Of a stretch of DNA of 64,000 nt, positions 6,117 to 42,604 are shown piece by piece; position 1 is the stretch's first letter; each line of letters opens with the position of its first letter. Below the pieces are notes generated by a model. That model made no database searches and had not been told where the DNA came from. It saw only the letters and a list, made by a program, of their open reading frames with translations. This stretch comes from Luteimonas terrae. Lineage in GTDB: Bacteria > Pseudomonadota > Gammaproteobacteria > Xanthomonadales > Xanthomonadaceae. The stretch covers positions 744,001 through 808,000 of the forward strand of contig NZ_SMTG01000002.1 of assembly GCF_004358165.1 (NCBI RefSeq), in the 5' to 3' direction. The translations under genes were made by a program, and so were the position numbers.

Positions 6117-8708
6117 ATGTTGGAAGCCTATCGCCACCACGTTGCCGAGCGCGAAGCGCTGGGAATCCCGCCGCTGCCGCTCAATGCGCAGCAGACCGCG
6201 GACGTCATCGAACTGCTGAAGAACCCGCCCGCGGGTGAAGCGGAGTTCCTGCTCGACCTGCTGACCCACCGCGTGCCGGCCGGCGTCGACGACGCCGCCA
6301 AGGTCAAGGCCTCGTACCTCGCCGCGATCGCCTTCGGCAGCGAACGCAACGCGCTGATCACCCGCGCGCGCGCCACCGAACTGCTGGGCACCATGCTCGG
6401 CGGCTACAACGTGCAGCCGCTGGTCGACCTGCTCGACGATGCCGAGGTCGGCACCATCGCCGCCGACGCGCTCAAGCACACGCTGCTGGTGTTCGATGCC
6501 TTCCACGACGTCGAAGAGAAGGCCAAGGCCGGCAACGCGAACGCCAAGGGCGTGCTGCAGAGCTGGGCCGACGCCGAGTGGTTCACCAGCAAGCCGGAAG
6601 TGCCGCAGTCGATGACACTGACGGTGTTCAAGGTGCCGGGCGAGACCAATACCGACGACCTGTCGCCGGCGCCCGACGCGACCACGCGTCCGGACATCCC
6701 GATGCACGCGCTGGCGATGCTCAAGAACAAGCGCGACGACGCGCCGTTCGTGCCGGAAGAAGACGGCAAGCGCGGCCCGATCCAGGCCATCCTCGATCTC
6801 AAGAAGAAGGGCAACCTCGTCGCCTACGTCGGTGACGTGGTGGGTACCGGTTCGAGCCGCAAGTCGGCGACCAACAGCGTGCTGTGGTGGACCGGCGACG
6901 ACATTCCCTACATCCCGAACAAGCGCGCCGGCGGCGTGTGCCTGGGTTCGAAGATCGCGCCGATCTTCTACAACACGATGGAGGACGCCGGCGCGCTGCC
7001 GATCGAACTCGACGTGTCGCAGATGGAGCAGGGCGACGTCATCGAGTTGCGTCCCTTCGAAGGCAAGGCGCTCAAGAACGGCGCCGTGATCGCCGAGTTC
7101 CAGGTCAAGTCGGACGTGCTGTTCGACGAAGTGCGCGCCGGTGGCCGCATTCCGCTGATCGTCGGCCGCGGCCTGACCGCCAAGGCGCGCGAGTCGCTGG
7201 GCTTGCCGGCGACCGACCTGTTCCGCCTGCCGCAGCAGCCGGCCGACACCGGCAAGGGCTTCTCGCTGGCGCAGAAGATGGTCGGCCGCGCGATCGGTCT
7301 GCCGGAAGGCCAGGGCGTGCGCCCGGGTACCTACTGCGAACCGAAGATGACCTCGGTCGGTTCCCAGGACACCACCGGTCCGATGACCCGCGACGAGCTG
7401 AAGGACCTGGCGTGCCTGGGCTTCTCGGCGGACCTCGTCATGCAGTCGTTCTGCCACACCGCGGCGTATCCGAAGCCGGTCGACGTCAAGACCCATCACA
7501 CGCTGCCGGAGTTCATCTCCACGCGTGGCGGCATCTCGCTGCGTCCGGGTGACGGCGTGATCCACAGCTGGCTCAACCGCATGCTGCTGCCCGATACCGT
7601 CGGCACCGGCGGCGACTCGCACACGCGTTTCCCGGTCGGTATCTCGTTCCCGGCGGGTTCGGGTCTGGTCGCATTCGCGGCCGCGACCGGCGTCATGCCG
7701 CTCGACATGCCCGAGTCGGTGCTGGTGCGCTTCAAGGGCAAGATGCAGCCCGGCGTGACCCTGCGCGACCTGGTCAACGCGATCCCGCTCTACGCGATCA
7801 AGCAGGGCCTGCTGACCGTGGCCAAGGCCGGCAAGAAGAACATCTTCTCCGGTCGCATCCTCGAGATCGAAGGTCTGCCGGATCTCAAGGTCGAGCAGGC
7901 GTTCGAGCTGTCCGACGCCTCGGCCGAGCGTTCGGCCGCCGGGTGCTCGGTGCACCTCAACAAGGAACCGATCATCGAGTACATCAACAGCAATATCGCG
8001 TTGCTGCGCTGGATGATCGCCGAGGGCTACCAGGATCCACGTTCGATCCAGCGCCGCATCGAGAAGATGGAAGCCTGGCTGGCCGATCCGCAGCTGCTCA
8101 AGGGCGACGACGATGCCGAGTACGCCGCGGTCATCGAGATCGATCTGGCCGACGTGCACGAGCCGATCCTGGCTTGCCCGAACGATCCGGACGACGTGAA
8201 GTTCCTGTCCGAAGTCGCCGGCGTCGAGATTGACGAGGTGTTCATCGGTTCCTGCATGACCAACATCGGCCACTTCCGCGCGGCATCGAAGCTGCTGGAA
8301 GGCAAGCGCGATATCCCGACCAAGCTGTGGGTCGCCCCGCCGACCAAGATGGACGCCGCCGAGCTGACCAAGGAAGGCCACTACGGCACCTTCGGCGCGG
8401 CCGGCGCGCGCATGGAAATGCCGGGCTGCTCGCTGTGCATGGGCAACCAGGCGCAGGTGCGCGAAGGCGCGACGGTGTTCTCCACGTCCACCCGCAACTT
8501 CCCGAACCGTCTGGGCCGCAACTCGAACGTCTACCTGGGCTCGGCCGAACTCGCGGCGATCTGCTCGCGCCTGGGCCGCATTCCGACCAAGGCCGAGTAC
8601 ATGGCCGACGTCGGCGTGCTGGACGCCTCGGCGAACGACATCTACCGCTACATGAACTTCGACCAGATTCCGGAGTACGTGGAAGCGGGCGAGAAGACCG
8701 CTGCCTGA
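6117..8708 (+). CDS. acnB: Aconitate hydratase B
   Basis: 863 residues, matching the AcnB family length. The N-terminus [17 protein letters not shown] is nearly that of E. coli AcnB and fixes the ATG at 6117, with GGAG at 6104-6107. Domain order is AcnB type: HEAT-like domain first, then swivel domain, then the catalytic core. The three [4Fe-4S] ligands are Cys713 ([10 protein letters not shown]), Cys771 and Cys774 ([10 protein letters not shown]). It interconverts citrate and isocitrate in the TCA cycle, and in other species acts as an iron-sensing RNA-binding protein when the cluster is lost. It is followed by a terminator and stands alone. Confidence 0.97.
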
Positions 8709-8730
8709 CGGCAACGGTTTGCGGACACGA

Positions 8731-8757
8731 AACACCCGGCCTCGCGCCGGGTGTTTT
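8731..8757 (+). terminator. Intrinsic terminator of acnB
   Basis: A 10-bp perfect stem (AACACCCGGC 8731-8740, GCCGGGTGTT 8746-8755) with loop CTCGC, followed by further T residues, 22 bp after the acnB stop. Confidence 0.85.
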
Positions 8758-8828
8758 GTATCAGGGGTCCTGTACGTTTCGATCCGATTCTTGCTACGTC
8801 ACGGTTGAGCCGCCATCGCGAGAGGCCG

Positions 8829-8990
8829 CCCCTTCCCCCGCCTGCGGGGGAAGGTTGGGATGGGGGCGAGCAGGAAGACCGGAACGAATGCCTCCTGCGC
8901 GATCTCGACCCTGGATCCGCACGAGTTCATCGGCAGCACGATCGGGCCGTTTGCCCCACCCAACCCTACCCCGCACGCGGAGGAGGGCTC
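8829..8990. repeat. Intergenic element with terminal inverted repeats, copy A
   Basis: The left end is a hairpin CCTTCCCCCG-CCTG-CGGGGGAAGG followed by TTGGGATGGGGGC; the right end (about 8953-8988) is the inverted counterpart, GCCCCACCCAACCCTACCCC with a degenerate hairpin. About 80 bp of unrelated DNA lies between. The same structure recurs at 49019-49184. It ends at the stop codon of the histidine-phosphatase gene, in a convergent intergenic space. It is REP/BIME- or MITE-like; no protein is encoded. Confidence 0.65.
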
Positions 8991-9636
8991 AGTCCGTCGC
9001 CAAGTGCGCAATTCCGCGCGCGAGATCCGCGCGATAGCGCAGATGCCACTGCCCGCCCGTGCCGGTCAGTTCGTACACCGCGCAATTCGGCATCGGCAGC
9101 GCCACCTGGAATGCGCGGAACGCGCGCATGTCGTCGGGCGTGTCGGCCTCGAAGCCCATCAGCCGCCAGGCCAGCAGGCCGAACCAGATCCCGTGGCCGA
9201 ACAGCACGCTGCCCTCGGCCAGCGCCTCCATGCCGTCGATGAAGCCGTCCACGCAGGCCACGAACTCGCCGAAGGTATCGGCCGCGTCGCCCATGCGTGC
9301 GTCGCGATCGCCGCGCGCCCAGTAGGCCTCGGTCAAGGGGCGTCGCTGCTCGCCGGTCAGGCCCTCGATCCGCGCCGGATCGATGGCCGAGAACTCGTGC
9401 ATGAGCCGATGCACCTGCGCATCGATGCCGATGCGCGCGCAGTACGGCCCTGCGGTCGCGCGCGCGCGATCGAACTTCGACACGTGTACCGCGCCCGCGT
9501 CCACCGGCAACTGCGTGGCGATCCACGCCGCCTGTGCTTGGCCGGTCGACGACAGCGGAATGGTCGGGTGCGGGAGGGTCCGGCCGCCAGCATTGGCCAC
9601 GCTCTGCGCGTGGCGGACGAAGGTCAGACGCGCCAC
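8989..9636 (-). CDS. Histidine phosphatase family protein
   Basis: 215 residues. The phosphohistidine motif is VRHAQS with His9 (RHA instead of the usual RHG), and the second catalytic histidine is in LFGHGIW. Family members include phosphoglycerate mutases and small-molecule or protein phosphatases; the substrate here is unknown. The start lies 7 bp downstream of the hflD stop, so it is probably the last gene of the nudJ-mnmA-hflD operon. Confidence 0.8.
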   Translation of the reverse strand: MARLTFVRHAQSVANAGGRTLPHPTIPLSSTGQAQAAWIATQLPVDAGAVHVSKFDRARATAGPYCARIGIDAQVHRLMHEFSAIDPARIEGLTGEQRRPLTEAYWARGDRDARMGDAADTFGEFVACVDGFIDGMEALAEGSVLFGHGIWFGLLAWRLMGFEADTPDDMRAFRAFQVALPMPNCAVYELTGTGGQWHLRYRADLARGIAHLATD

Positions 9637-9643
9637 GCGCGCG

Positions 9644-10231
9644 TCAGATCGCGCGCAGCATCTGCTGGCGGCGCAGCAGGAAGTCCCACAGGCTGCCGCC
9701 CATCTGCCGCCACAACACCGCCGAACGCAACGAAGCCAACAGCACCGCGCGGATCTCGGCGACCACGTTGGCCTGGCCGAGGTAATGCGGATTGCCCTGG
9801 ACCATCACCTTCGGACGCAGGTGGCTGACCGTGTCGGCATACAGCGCGCCGAGCGCGGCCAGCACTTCGGGATGCGTGTGTCCGAGCTGTTCGGCCTTGG
9901 GTTTGATCTCGAGGATGCCGTGATGCACTTCGCCGCTGACGGCGCGATCCTGGATGAAGCGGCGTTCGAGCTGCGCGACCGCAAGGCCCAGCTTGGGCAG
10001 CAGCGGGTCGCTGCCCTGGTTGCCGAAGTAATCGCGCAGCAACATCAGGCCCGGCACGACCGCGTCGCGTCCACCGTAGACGGCTTCGGGCGAGGACGCA
10101 TCGATGCGGAACACGCTGTCGAGCGAGGTCGACAGCACGGCGGCGTCGGCCTGGCCGGTCTCGGCGATGCGGCGGACCTGCTTGAGCGCCTGGGCCATGC
10201 CGGCCAGCGCGAGCACGCGGTCTTCCATCAT
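9644..10231 (-). CDS. hflD: High-frequency lysogenization protein HflD homologue
   Basis: 195 residues, all-helical, with the conserved [19 protein letters not shown] opening and the [15 protein letters not shown] and [19 protein letters not shown] stretches. In E. coli HflD is a peripheral membrane protein that antagonises phage lambda CII; the cellular role is unclear. The ATG at 10231 overlaps the mnmA stop (ATGA). The order nudJ-mnmA-hflD is conserved with E. coli, although purB, which follows there, is absent here. Confidence 0.9.
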
Positions 10232-11349
10232 GCCGCCACCCCGCGTGCGCGCAGCTCCAATGGCGCATCCGTGGCCGCGATGACCGCACCGCCGAGGCAC
10301 ACGTCGCCGTCGTAGAGCACCAAGGACTGGCCGGGCGTGACGGCGCGCTGGGGGCGGTCGAACCGCACGTCGAGTTGGCCAGTGTTCGCGTCGATGGTCA
10401 CTTCGCAGGATTCCTCGTGTTGCCGGTAACGGGTCTGGGCGGTGCAGCGGAAGCGCGGCGCCGGCGGATCGCCCGCGATCCAGTGCGCGGGCTCGCTGCG
10501 CAGCCAGGTCGACTGCAGCCAGGGCGTGTCGGCGCCCTGCGCGACGTAGAGCACATTGTCGCCCACATCCTTGCCCACCACATACCAAGGCGCCGCGTCG
10601 AAGCCGCGCACGCCGCCGATCTGCAGGCCTTCGCGCTGACCGAGGGTGAAATAGAACACGCCCGGATGCGTGCCGACGCGGTGGCCGTCGGGCGTGCGCA
10701 TCTCGCCTTCGCGGGCCGGCAGGTACTGGCCGAGGAAGCTGCGGAAGTCGCGTTCGCCGATGAAGCAGATGCCGGTCGAATCCTTCTTCTCCGCGGTCGG
10801 CAGGCCGGCTGCGCGGGCGAGGTCGCGCACGTCGGTCTTGGGCAGTTCGCCGAGCGGAAACAGCGTCGCGGCGAGCTGCGCCTGGCCGAGCTGGTGCAGG
10901 AAATAGCTCTGGTCCTTGTTGCGGTCACGCGCCCGCAGCAGGCGCCAGCGGCCGTCGACTGCATCGACGCGCGCGTAATGGCCCGTCGCGATCTTCGCCG
11001 CGCCCAGATCGCGCGCGGCGTCCAGGAAGTGCTTGAACTTGATCTCGCGGTTGCACAGCACGTCGGGATTGGGCGTGCGTCCGGCCGCGTACTCGGCGAT
11101 GAAGTGCTCGAACACGCCGGCCCAGTACTCGCCGGAGAAATCGCGGAAATGGATCGGCAGGCCGAGGCGGCCCGAGACCGCGACCGCATCGCGACGGTCG
11201 TCCTCGGCGCGGCAATCGCCGGAGCCGTCGTCGGCCCAGTTCTGCATGAACAGACCGGCCAGCGACACGCCCGAGTCGCGCAGCAACAAGGCGGCGACCG
11301 ACGAGTCCACGCCGCCGGACATGCCGACGATGACCTCGGGCGCGCTCAT
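10228..11349 (-). CDS. mnmA: tRNA-specific 2-thiouridylase MnmA
   Basis: 373 residues. The PP-loop SGGVDSS at 11-17 activates U34 of tRNA-Lys/Glu/Gln by adenylation. Catalytic Cys99 (VLCNREIKF) and Cys195 ([12 protein letters not shown]) carry out sulfur transfer, matching Cys102/Cys199 of E. coli. The start ATG at 11349 overlaps the stop of nudJ (ATGA). tRNA-Glu(UUC), one of its expected substrates, is encoded at 42.4 kb. Confidence 0.96.
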
Positions 11350-40050: not shown

Positions 40051-41012
40051 TACGACATCCAGAATTTCGCATAATGTACAAAAAGCCTTTGAAAAACAAG
40101 GGCTTGAAGAAGAGGGCGGTTCGGCCCCTCATTACCGCTGAGCAATTCCGAGATGCGCGTGTGTTCGGTGGCTTCACCCGCGAAGAGGTCGCCGAATTTC
40201 TCTGCGTCGGACTTCGCACCGTAGGCCATTGGGAGACCGGCAAAACCCGCGTTCCCTATTCGGCTTTCAAGCTTCTTCGTGTGCTTCGCCATGGCGATTT
40301 GATTGACCCTGCTTGGTCCGAATGGAAGATCTCCCGAGGCATGCTCTGGACTCCTGAGGGGCGCGCTATTGGGCCTCATGAGGGCCAGTGGTTGGGCCTT
40401 CTCGTCGCGCGTGCTCACCTCTCTGCTGACCTGGCTAAAGAGGTCCAGAAGCTGCGTGCACGTATCGCCGAACTGACTGCCGCTGGGGTCGAGGCCGGAG
40501 CGGTAACGGAGCGAAGCGACGGTCTCGCGACGGCCGCTGGCCCCATTGGGCTTGTCTATTCTTCAACAAGTGGTCCGCGCTCTCTGACCGCCTTTCCGGT
40601 TCAGTGGTTTAGCTTGAATTCTTCCTATTGCACTGGCCCATTTATGGGGCCAGAATGGGGCCATGAACGCACCCAAGCCAGAGATACACAAGCTCAACCT
40701 CCGGCTTCCGCCCGAGTTGAAACAGCAGCTGCAGATTTACGCGGACAGCGTGGGCGTGTCGCTCAATGCGGCATGCCTGCTGGCAATCCGGAATTACCTG
40801 CCGTACGCGATGAAGGGTGTGGAGCAGTTCGAGAAGAACGTACCCAAGCCATCTCTCCCGCGAGCCACAAAGGCGCAGTCGGCAATGCCACATCGAAAAG
40901 CCGAACCCGTCTTGCAAAGGCGGGTTGGTCGGAACGAGTCATGCCCTTGCATGAGTGGCAAAAAGGCGAAGGTTTGCCATCCGGAGTGGACCTGACGGGA
41001 GAGCCGCGATGA
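40041..41012 (+). CDS. Xer recombination activation factor-like protein (VC1465/DUF3653 type)
   Basis: 323 residues as read in the integrated state. Core at about residues 12-145: [14 protein letters not shown], a helix-turn-helix ([20 protein letters not shown]) and the DUF3653-like [20 protein letters not shown]. In TLC phage a relative lets XerCD recombine without FtsK. The first residues come from chromosomal DNA left of the junction; from the second ATG (40074) the gene is element-borne. In the excised circle the start would be ATG 41574 (MKSRLRIMYKK). The C-terminal half overlaps another gene in a different frame (40663-40995) and may not be real coding. The stop overlaps the next ATG (ATGA, 41009-41012). 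Confidence 0.65.
40064..40080 (+). other. Left junction: dif-like half site (XerC arm plus central region)
   Basis: XerC arm ATTTCGCATAA (40064-40074) and centre TGTACA (40075-40080) match dif, but the following bases (AAAAGCCTTTG) do not match a XerD arm. Its last 15 bp repeat exactly at 41587-41601. This is what insertion of a circle at dif leaves on the XerC side. Confidence 0.75.
40633..40663. promoter_or_regulatory. Putative operator in front of the RHH gene
   Basis: Inverted repeat CTGGCCC (40633-40639) / GGGCCAG (40647-40653), plus a direct repeat TGGGGCCA at 40645-40652 and 40656-40663, 11 bp apart; the second copy runs into the ATG. The spacing of one helical turn suits cooperative binding of small ribbon-helix-helix dimers. 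Confidence 0.45.
40663..40995 (+). CDS. Ribbon-helix-helix-like protein with C-terminal SEC-C zinc motif
   Basis: 110 residues. N-terminal half resembles an Arc/MetJ-type DNA-binding domain ([22 protein letters not shown], then [14 protein letters not shown]). The last residues, [20 protein letters not shown], match the SEC-C metal-binding motif (GRN-CPCGSGKK-K-C) with Met for Gly and His for the last Cys. The combination is unusual. It may be the repressor of the element, acting on the repeats just upstream. Confidence 0.65.
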   Translation: MNAPKPEIHKLNLRLPPELKQQLQIYADSVGVSLNAACLLAIRNYLPYAMKGVEQFEKNVPKPSLPRATKAQSAMPHRKAEPVLQRRVGRNESCPCMSGKKAKVCHPEWT

Positions 41013-41338
41013 GGCGTCGGCAGTCGAACCCTGAGTATCTCCGGGCTGCTTACCTCCGGGCCCTTGAGGTTGTCGACGCACTCGATAGCGTGCATGCCGA
41101 CAACAAATCTCCGACCCTTGAAGATCGCATTGCTTATGCCGATGCGCGGCGTTCTCTTCAAGCTTTCGCTGATTATTTCCACACCGAACTGTCGATCGTT
41201 GCTCGCCGCGGCGGGCATGGACACCGCGTCCGTGGCGCTGCCGCCGATGCCGTTGCCGGGCGCCAGCCGCGAGGCGGGCGACCCGGCATCGACTTCGACG
41301 GCGACACCCAATCGCGTTCAACAGGTGGCCCGGAATGA
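41009..41338 (+). CDS. Element protein of unknown function (109 aa)
   Basis: 109 residues, with GGGAGAG before the ATG at 41009. Arg-rich start ([21 protein letters not shown]), a helical, negatively charged middle (SPTLEDRIAYADARRSLQAF), and a Gly/Arg-rich tail. No family recognised. The ATG overlaps the stop of the Xer-activator frame and its own stop overlaps the next ATG (41335-41338). Confidence 0.5.
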   Translation: MRRRQSNPEYLRAAYLRALEVVDALDSVHADNKSPTLEDRIAYADARRSLQAFADYFHTELSIVARRGGHGHRVRGAAADAVAGRQPRGGRPGIDFDGDTQSRSTGGPE

Positions 41339-41577
41339 CCGTTCGACCTGGCTATTTCGTCAAGCGTCAGGATTGGGGTGCAGGGGCTGCGCCCCTGCGG
41401 TTATGGCGCATGGATGCGCCGCTTCTTCCTAGCGGTCGGACCCGCGCTAGGGGCCGGTCAGCAGTAGGCATGTCCGCTTTCTGCCGACCGGCTTTTCGCA
41501 CCAACATCCGGGCAATTACTGCCAGCGGTTGCAGCCGCTGGACAACCCAGAGCCGCACGGGGGCGGCAGTGCTATGA
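41335..41577 (+). CDS. Possible small element protein (80 aa)
   Basis: 80 residues. It begins MTVRPGYFVKRQDWG, which looks like real coding, but from residue 15 on it runs through five strong hairpins and turns Arg/Ser-rich, so it may be only partly or not translated. Start and stop both sit in ATGA overlaps (41335-41338 and 41574-41577); the second leads into the short ORF that becomes the Xer-activator start in the circle. Confidence 0.35.
   Translation: MTVRPGYFVKRQDWGAGAAPLRLWRMDAPLLPSGRTRARGRSAVGMSAFCRPAFRTNIRAITASGCSRWTTQSRTGAAVL
41380..41541. repeat. Cluster of five hairpins
   Basis: GCAGGGGC/GCCCCTGC (41380-41398), GGCGCA/TGCGCC (41405-41420), CCTAGCG/CGCTAGG (41428-41451), CCGGTC-GCAG/CTGC-GACCGG (41454-41491), CCAGCGG/CCGCTGG (41522-41541). 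No T-tract follows any, so they are not terminators. Such clusters are usual in filamentous-phage intergenic regions (origins, packaging signal). Confidence 0.6.
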
Positions 41578-41584
41578 AATCACG

Positions 41585-41612
41585 ACTTCGCATAATGTAC
41601 ATTATGTAAATT
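41585..41612 (+). other. dif: Chromosome dimer resolution site dif (right junction of the element)
   Basis: Arms and centre match the 11-6-11 XerC/XerD plan: XerC arm ACTTCGCATAA, centre TGTACA, XerD arm TTATGTAAATT. E. coli dif has GGTGCGCATAA, TGTATA and TTATGTTAAAT. KOPS-like octamers on both sides point toward it. The XerC arm here is from the element; the original chromosomal arm is at 40064. Confidence 0.85.
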
Positions 41613-42376: not shown

Positions 42377-42452
42377 TGGCGTCCCCACGGGGATTCGAAC
42401 CCCGGTGTCCACCGTGAAAGGGTGGTGTCCTAGGCCTCTAGACGATGGGGAC
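42377..42452 (-). tRNA. tRNA-Glu (anticodon UUC)
   Basis: 76 nt including an encoded CCA. Acceptor GTCCCCA pairs with TGGGGAC; the anticodon arm reads CACCC-TTTCACG with UUC at 34-36; the T arm is CCGGGGTTCGAATCCCCG. Substrate of MnmA (encoded at 10.2-11.3 kb). Confidence 0.97.
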
Positions 42453-42512
42453 GCTGAAAACCGTCTTGCGTCATCCCGATGGTCAGGCCGTAAACGACCA
42501 CCGGACAAATTT

Positions 42513-42588
42513 TGGTGGAGCCAGGCGGGATCGAACCGCCGACCTCCTGCATGCCATGCAGGCGCTCTCCCAGCTGAGCTATGGCCCC
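42513..42588 (-). tRNA. tRNA-Ala (anticodon GGC)
   Basis: 76 nt including CCA. Acceptor GGGGCCA pairs with TGGCTCC; the anticodon arm is CCTGCATGGCATGCAGG with GGC; the T arm is GGCGGTTCGATCCCGCC. First gene of a two-tRNA operon; tRNA-Glu follows after 60 nt. Confidence 0.97.
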
Positions 42589-42604
42589 ACGTTTGGGAGC
42601 GCGA

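Follow-up and report, generated by a model that had tools for sequence, protein, structure and literature searches.

A 1.5-kb element at the chromosomal dif site of Luteimonas terrae, a probable minimal satellite of filamentous phages

Contig NZ_SMTG01000002.1 of Luteimonas terrae was analysed over a window of 64,000 nucleotides (positions 744,001 to 808,000 of the forward strand). At 40064 to 41612 of this window a short element lies at the chromosomal dif. The locus raises the question of how 1.5 kb of DNA without a recombinase or replication initiator could have entered dif, and what kind of element it is. It is probably a minimal satellite of Cf/phiLf-type filamentous phages, of the TLC class but lacking a replication initiator (Rep), integrated at dif by the host XerC and XerD recombinases and equipped with its own XafT-like activator. 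Because it holds little beyond a gene of the Xer-activator type and filamentous-phage signals, it looks like a member of a widespread family of very small satellites.

Attachment sites and the xaf gene

The right attachment (att) site (41585 to 41612, plus strand) is a complete 28-bp dif, ACTTCGCATAA-TGTACA-TTATGTAAATT, comprising XerC arm, centre and XerD arm. The left att half-site (40064 to 40080, plus strand; ATTTCGCATAATGTACA) has the XerC arm ATTTCGCATAA and the centre TGTACA, followed by element DNA instead of an XerD arm. The two sites agree at 16 of 17 positions and have in common an exact 15-bp repeat with a spacing of 1,521 bp. The 28-mer made by joining the left XerC arm and centre to the right XerD arm reads the same as its reverse complement at 22 of 28 positions. 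GC content is 0.597 in the element, 0.670 in the flanks and 0.679 in the whole window. An initial annotation, made from the letters alone, had proposed the dif plan of the right site, the half-site, the repeat, the near-palindrome and the lower GC, and all of these were confirmed. It had also likened the joined dif to that of other gammaproteobacteria; with up to 3 mismatches allowed, 18 of 61 genomes held the joined 28-mer (control 0).

The host genome (3.57 Mb, 15 contigs) was searched with the 17-mer of XerC arm plus centre. Matches with 0 and 1 mismatch were found at the two att sites only, and a third match (3 mismatches) came from the opposite arm of that dif, read in reverse. None was found elsewhere in the 3.57 Mb at up to 3 mismatches, so the better dif elsewhere that would have told against the initial annotation did not turn up. 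With the pattern reversed as a control, the host genome yielded 2 matches within 3 mismatches; matches that lax can therefore be chance, those at 0 to 1 mismatch hardly. The genome holds one copy of the element.

Of 19 relatives, 7 (G001, G030, G011, G031, G029, G013 and G014) have a dif neighbourhood with which the right flank (3 kb) aligned over long stretches. The left flank (2 kb) aligned only in short stretches (approximately 165 bp) in 2 of the 19. Four of the seven syntenic relatives (G030, G031, G011 and G013) have one dif each and no second half-site in the 14.7 to 16 kb retrieved, which is what an empty site would show. A location away from dif, the other finding that would have contradicted the annotation, was not seen in relatives; dif-like repeats were present wherever both ends could be placed. 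To the right of the element, at 42380 to 42590, two tRNA-like stretches were recognised by eye with a phosphoenolpyruvate (PEP) synthase region beyond them, and this flank lies near dif in several relatives.

The element thus has dif-like sites on both sides at the chromosomal dif, one of them complete, as in an integrative mobile element exploiting Xer recombination (IMEX). No recombinase was found among its four tested ORFs, and the host has an Xer pair. XerD was over the cut-off at 347.6 bits, and a second Xer recombinase, scored without an XerC model at 285.3 bits, was read as XerC. The putative attP has the layout of TLCphi, the XerC arm and centre resembling dif and the XerD side being degenerate. 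The analysis supports, as the best reading of these sites, that host Xer recombination inserted the element at the chromosomal dif.

The gene xaf (40074 to 40451, plus strand) was predicted to encode a Xer recombination activation factor of the XafT/VC1465 family, as TLCphi does, with a helix-turn-helix (HTH) and a DUF3653-like C-terminal part. Its ATG falls within the centre of the left att site. As the frame continues without a stop as far as 41012, it is uncertain where the protein really ends. Residues 25 to 124 of this frame score 84.3 bits (cut-off 70) against NF040522, the VC1465 family, as a full-length member. DUF3653 scored 22.8 bits on the trimmed Xaf domain and 21.6 bits, below the cut-off of 22.4, on the long open reading frame (ORF). 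The AlphaFold2 model of Xaf had a mean predicted local distance difference test (pLDDT) score of 73 and consisted of an HTH, a beta hairpin and a long helix. A PDB sequence search matched 8 distinct sequences in the HTH part, named as antitoxins, transcriptional regulators and Aca proteins. The ratio of nonsynonymous to synonymous substitution rates (dN/dS) of xaf was 0.04 to 0.19 in seven close pairs; three pairs including the window copy gave 0.20, 0.27 and saturation. Judged by these ratios, xaf is under purifying selection.

Phage-type signals and the remaining ORFs

A candidate plus-strand origin was located at 40532 to 40572 (plus strand). It comprises a short inverted repeat, GGCC-GCT-GGCC, and the motif GGGCTTGTCTATTCTTCAACAAGTG at 40548 to 40572. 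The 25-bp motif GGGCTTGTCNNTTCTTCAACAAGTG, searched at up to 3 mismatches, was present in 4 of the 61 genomes, always without mismatch, and in none of the control. The four were the window element and the inoviruses of G001, G008 and G024. In the version of one inovirus contig, the motif aligned with nine phage records (36 bases at 89%), every one from a Xanthomonas phage (Cf1t, Cf1c, XacF1, phiLf and phiXv2), and in five the place of the motif is annotated as replication initiation protein. The phiLf motif lies at 300 to 335 of the initiator gene 1 to 1041, and the phiLf origin is presumably inside that gene. An inverted repeat upstream of the motif was found in phages and in many short elements.

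A hairpin array occupies 41340 to 41584 (plus strand), upstream of the right att site. Folded as single-stranded DNA, the 245-base array did better than its shuffles on the plus strand (z -2.25, 4 of 200 as good) and on the minus strand (z -3.89, 0 of 200). Hairpin 1 (41376 to 41398, plus strand; GGGTGCAGGGG-N-CCCCTGC) also occurs in inoviruses and is a candidate packaging signal. It had 47 matches, duplicates included, in approximately 1.2 Mb of fetched sequence, and as far as could be judged these lay in short elements or inovirus-like stretches. It occurred once each in 7 of the 61 genomes (control 0), of which three were short elements and four had, by eye, surrounding inovirus-like ORFs.

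Viral contigs were picked by the origin motif (N = 64, some partial). A pI/Zot-like motif was found in 40 of them, on the origin strand in all 40. Hairpin 1 was found in 30, on the origin strand each time and in 5 also on the opposite strand. In 24 contigs it lay at most 3 kb downstream of the pI/Zot motif. This position after pI, presumably comparable with that in the Ff phages, fits a packaging signal, and hairpin 1 may be one. Origin and hairpin signals are thus common to the element and inoviruses, as a satellite would have them, and their roles may be those of the phages.

Hairpin 2 (41404 to 41421, plus strand; GGCGCATGGATGCGCC) covaries among elements. The alignment held ten hairpin regions, near-duplicates and elements without recognisable hairpins 1 and 2 being excluded. 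Paired cells made up 98.3% of 60, with 8 cells changed on both sides, and 0 of 500 shuffles reached the pairing, the double-change or the covariation score. Two weaker measures, which count the pairs with double changes and the further pair types, were reached by 47 of 500 shuffles. A GGATG core was present near the end in 12 of 14 hairpin regions, one of which (G125b) was judged chance. Hairpin 3 (41431 to 41448, plus strand; AGCGGTCGGACCCGCGCT) is exact in G010 and has 1 mismatch in G009. It was rejected as a viral marker: its 16-mer GCGGTCGGACCCGCGC matched 20 viral contigs, the contexts of which had no array by eye, so hairpin 3 was left unused as a link to a helper. The 18-mer of hairpin 3 (up to 2 mismatches, 61 genomes) gave fewer matches than the reversed control.

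Two further ORFs follow xaf. ORF2 (40663 to 40995, plus strand) encodes a ribbon-helix-helix/HicB-type DNA-binding part and a SEC-C motif according to Pfam (HicB 25.2 bits, cut-off 21; SEC-C 24.7 bits, cut-off 20.4). ORF3 (41009 to 41338, plus strand) encodes a small protein without a family match; a similar protein was seen by eye in the tandem elements of locus L180. No initiator, coat, Zot or recombinase family was detected in the four ORFs of the element that were tested, and Pfam detected none of these in seven ORFs of other short elements. Neither an autonomous replication module of the TLCphi kind nor the initiator, coat and pI/Zot genes of the Inoviridae were therefore found in the element. 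An Rfam scan returned only one chance-level match. The initial annotation was thus right that no recombinase or initiator is to be seen; it overlooked the XafT-family activator, the phage-type origin motif, the hairpin array and the family of elements.

Short xaf elements and the explanations weighed

NF040522 was over its cut-off in 3 of the 61 genomes of the first set and matched 25 of them at E 0.001. Four of 14 control genomes matched, none over the cut-off. Among 395 genomes of the family 19 were over the cut-off, with 0 in the control. The three such genomes of the genus set hold the short elements G000, G009 and G010. Full-size inovirus-like prophages of 6.2 to 7.7 kb, with genes of phage type, were found at dif in seven relatives (L054, L055, L057, L064, L069, L070 and L071). 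Four of these prophages repeat the XerC arm and three (G001, G008 and G024) the XerD arm.

A hidden Markov model (HMM) was built from eight Xaf sequences. In the first loci fetched its full-length matches were the short elements, and inoviruses, phiLf included, matched only from approximately position 70. In later viral contigs full-length xaf adjoins a phage-sized interval (L298, L299, L300, L301 and L302). Full-length xaf was defined as reaching from model position 30 or before to 105 or beyond, and 33 hits were obtained in 27 of the 30 loci scanned. The count excludes truncated hits (L154, L155, L156 and L175) as well as duplicate loci and takes each array copy singly. For 25 of the 33 genes there is an att-like site on either side, with a spacing of 959 to 2,021 bp, and in 29 an att site is within approximately 60 bp of the xaf start. 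Two attP polarities were seen. The XerC arm is repeated in the window, G010, G009 and most others, and the XerD arm in L158, L168, L180, L181, G375 and G259.

In L180 an inovirus precedes a tandem array of a 1,530-bp element. The array has three copies (identities 98.1% and 99.9%), of which the last runs off the end of the contig. L159 has two element copies with a spacing of 1,560 bp, and phage-plus-short-element arrays were found in further contigs. The short element and the adjoining phage of L159 share a 47-bp stretch at 83% (8289 to 8335 against 2478 to 2524). This short element is without the GGGCTTGTC motif and the shared stretch lies just after the presumed initiator ORF of the phage; it is possibly a second type of origin. 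In the 7,831-bp viral contig L298 an att-like repeat occurs three times, including once at either end, and divides the contig into 6,245 bp with a pI/Zot-like motif and 1,569 bp with full-length xaf. L298 could represent a co-integrate circle of phage and satellite, or a piece of an array. In L138 (G397) and L144 (G066) a short xaf element directly adjoins a phage-sized interval that ends at a full dif. The element of L138 measures approximately 1,770 bp; the far end of that of L144 was not found. L145 (G133) has two opposed full-length xaf genes approximately 2.6 kb apart around one dif-like site (7084 to 10435). No att-like site was found near the full-length xaf of L140 (G410; 7843 to 8163).

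Further xaf loci, from betaproteobacteria, came from scanning named genomes (32 loci). Several of these have direct repeats 1 to 2 kb apart, putative att sites, and some have a second xaf. Comamonadaceae-type loci with full-length xaf were L265, L270, L272, L273, L274, L276 and L279. Their direct repeats are mostly TATACATCGTGGAA or TATACATCGTATCAA, and L265, L274 and L279 have the second xaf. The xaf elements could form a widespread class of 1 to 2 kb, perhaps smaller than any other phage satellites, that occurs in gamma- and probably also in betaproteobacteria. They would have an attP of either polarity, xaf as the core gene, a helper-type origin and hairpin signals, without initiator or coat gene, and xaf would be silenced on integration as its upstream DNA stays across attP. 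We hold this wider proposal with as much doubt as confidence.

For the window element the following life cycle is proposed. The attP of a double-stranded circle would recombine with dif through host XerC and XerD. Xaf would activate XerD at attP and dif, standing in for FtsK. When a helper inovirus enters, its initiator would nick the borrowed origin at 40548 to 40572. The resulting single strand, which has hairpin 1 on the same strand, would be packaged and exported by the helper. Integration may switch xaf off: xaf starts at the att site, so integration would replace the DNA upstream of it. Since no promoter was recognised, the switch is only a proposal. Excision would be a further step of this cycle.

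Several results weigh against the satellite reading. No Zot gene was matched in the host genome at E 0.01, so there is no resident helper, and the promoter scan recognised nothing. The motif of Cf1c and phiLf agrees with the window version at only 20 of 25 positions. The origin motif lies 380 to 620 bp into the element in only 14 of the 33 xaf contexts. Hairpin 1 is absent from 34 of the 64 viral contigs that have the origin motif, of which some are partial, and was not found by pattern in several dif inoviruses of the genus. The proposed origin and packaging roles rest on shared sequence, strand and place, neither signal being universal in the family, and the element is only presumed to move. 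Few stretches are shared by short element and neighbouring phage in ten pairs, the best being 47 bp at 83% (L159) and 62 bp at 71% (L180), so helper pairing by neighbourhood is not claimed. A PHROG annotated 'tail assembly protein' also matches xaf (E 6e-10), an annotation we take to be loose.

The element could instead be a decayed remnant, or an internal-deletion (defective-interfering) derivative, of a filamentous prophage that formerly occupied dif, and have no independent life cycle. Carrying an origin and a hairpin of phage type but no phage genes would suit such a remnant, as would the lack of a helper in the host genome. In the loci examined (L303 and L309 aside), however, full-length xaf is in short elements and inoviruses match only its C-terminal part. 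Size, site order and xaf position recur across many genomes, xaf is under purifying selection and near-identical copies stand in tandem. We regard a remnant as unlikely. It is improbable, too, that the element is Xer-dependent and integrative but makes no use of a phage, being excised, taken up by natural transformation or otherwise and re-integrated, its motif and hairpins having other roles. The missing helper would agree with this, and so would the 19 of 33 xaf contexts without the origin motif at the expected place. Against it, in the genomes searched the motif and hairpin are otherwise confined to inoviruses, on one strand, and tandem arrays adjoin inoviruses. A former element domesticated so that xaf at dif now helps chromosome dimer resolution would account for the only dif found holding the element and for purifying selection on xaf; it is very improbable, as most genomes are without xaf (of the family genomes, 19 of 395 have it over the cut-off; of the first set, 3 of 61). 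A chance repeat or assembly artefact is scarcely credible, for although the reversed control produced 2 matches at up to 3 mismatches, the two sites match at 0 and 1, the same structure occurs in many species and the content is of the XafT family.

If the element is indeed a minimal satellite, the size of phage satellites can fall to 1 to 1.5 kb, the retained gene being an activator of the host chromosome-dimer recombinases. Such elements would be compact natural tests of a XafT-like protein replacing FtsK, of the sequences by which inoviruses recognise origin and packaging signal, and of a phage and a satellite sharing one dif without blocking chromosome segregation. The recurrent xaf start at attP would be a directly testable switch tied to integration. 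XafT-encoding IMEXs are already reported as widespread, which bounds the novelty; the new part may be the 1 to 2 kb form without initiator, the phage-shared signals and the two polarities.

Comparison with known systems

The element DNA, its hairpin end and its long first ORF gave no useful match to named phages. The xaf domain matched them weakly by tblastn, with E 0.02 or worse among the best 20 of 51 records. No satellite comparable to the element was among the literature matches listed for such satellites and for the XafT family, in a search whose scope largely left aside subscription papers. XafT activates XerD in place of FtsK, and XafT-encoding IMEXs are reportedly widespread according to a study abstract. 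TLCphi is several kb in size, the window element 1.5 kb.

In the accessible part of one study, the TLCphi attP has a XerC site and centre like dif and a degenerate XerD site, its class includes phiLf and Cf1c, and XerD exchanges strands first, without FtsK (PMC4246890). Like the element, TLCphi integrates at dif, has the same attP layout and, as far as that part goes, no morphogenesis genes; it differs in an autonomous replication module of its own, none of which was found in the window element (PMC4246890). An excerpt of another paper, bearing on this role of XafT, concerns a V. cholerae IMEX (PMC9765430). This IMEX is presumably TLCphi. The activators of TLCphi and the element are both of the VC1465 family.

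Cf1c, phiLf and XacF1 are like the element in dif integration, attP plan and the origin-region motif. They differ in their size of 6 to 7.3 kb and in having initiator, coat and pI/Zot genes. phiLf also has hairpin 1 and, beside attP, a DUF3653 protein (35.0 bits). That protein matches only the C-terminal part of Xaf, and the attP-containing protein is a separate HTH/DUF3693 protein. As the two adjoin, the pair resembles the two parts of Xaf, though it is not the same protein. According to an excerpt, loss of most of ORF12, the XacF1 gene containing attP, delays integration and destabilises the prophage (PMC5666396). An equation of ORF12 with the DUF3653 part of Xaf was dropped, as Pfam assigned HTH/DUF3693 to the attP protein of the phiLf counterparts and DUF3653 to its neighbour.

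The gonococcal genomic island is a much larger island. As an IMEX it is placed in the TLC class of attP in the part of the study available (PMC4246890). RS1, a satellite of CTXphi, is also small, depends on a helper and lies at dif close to a filamentous prophage; at approximately 2.7 kb and with its own replication gene it differs from the window element.
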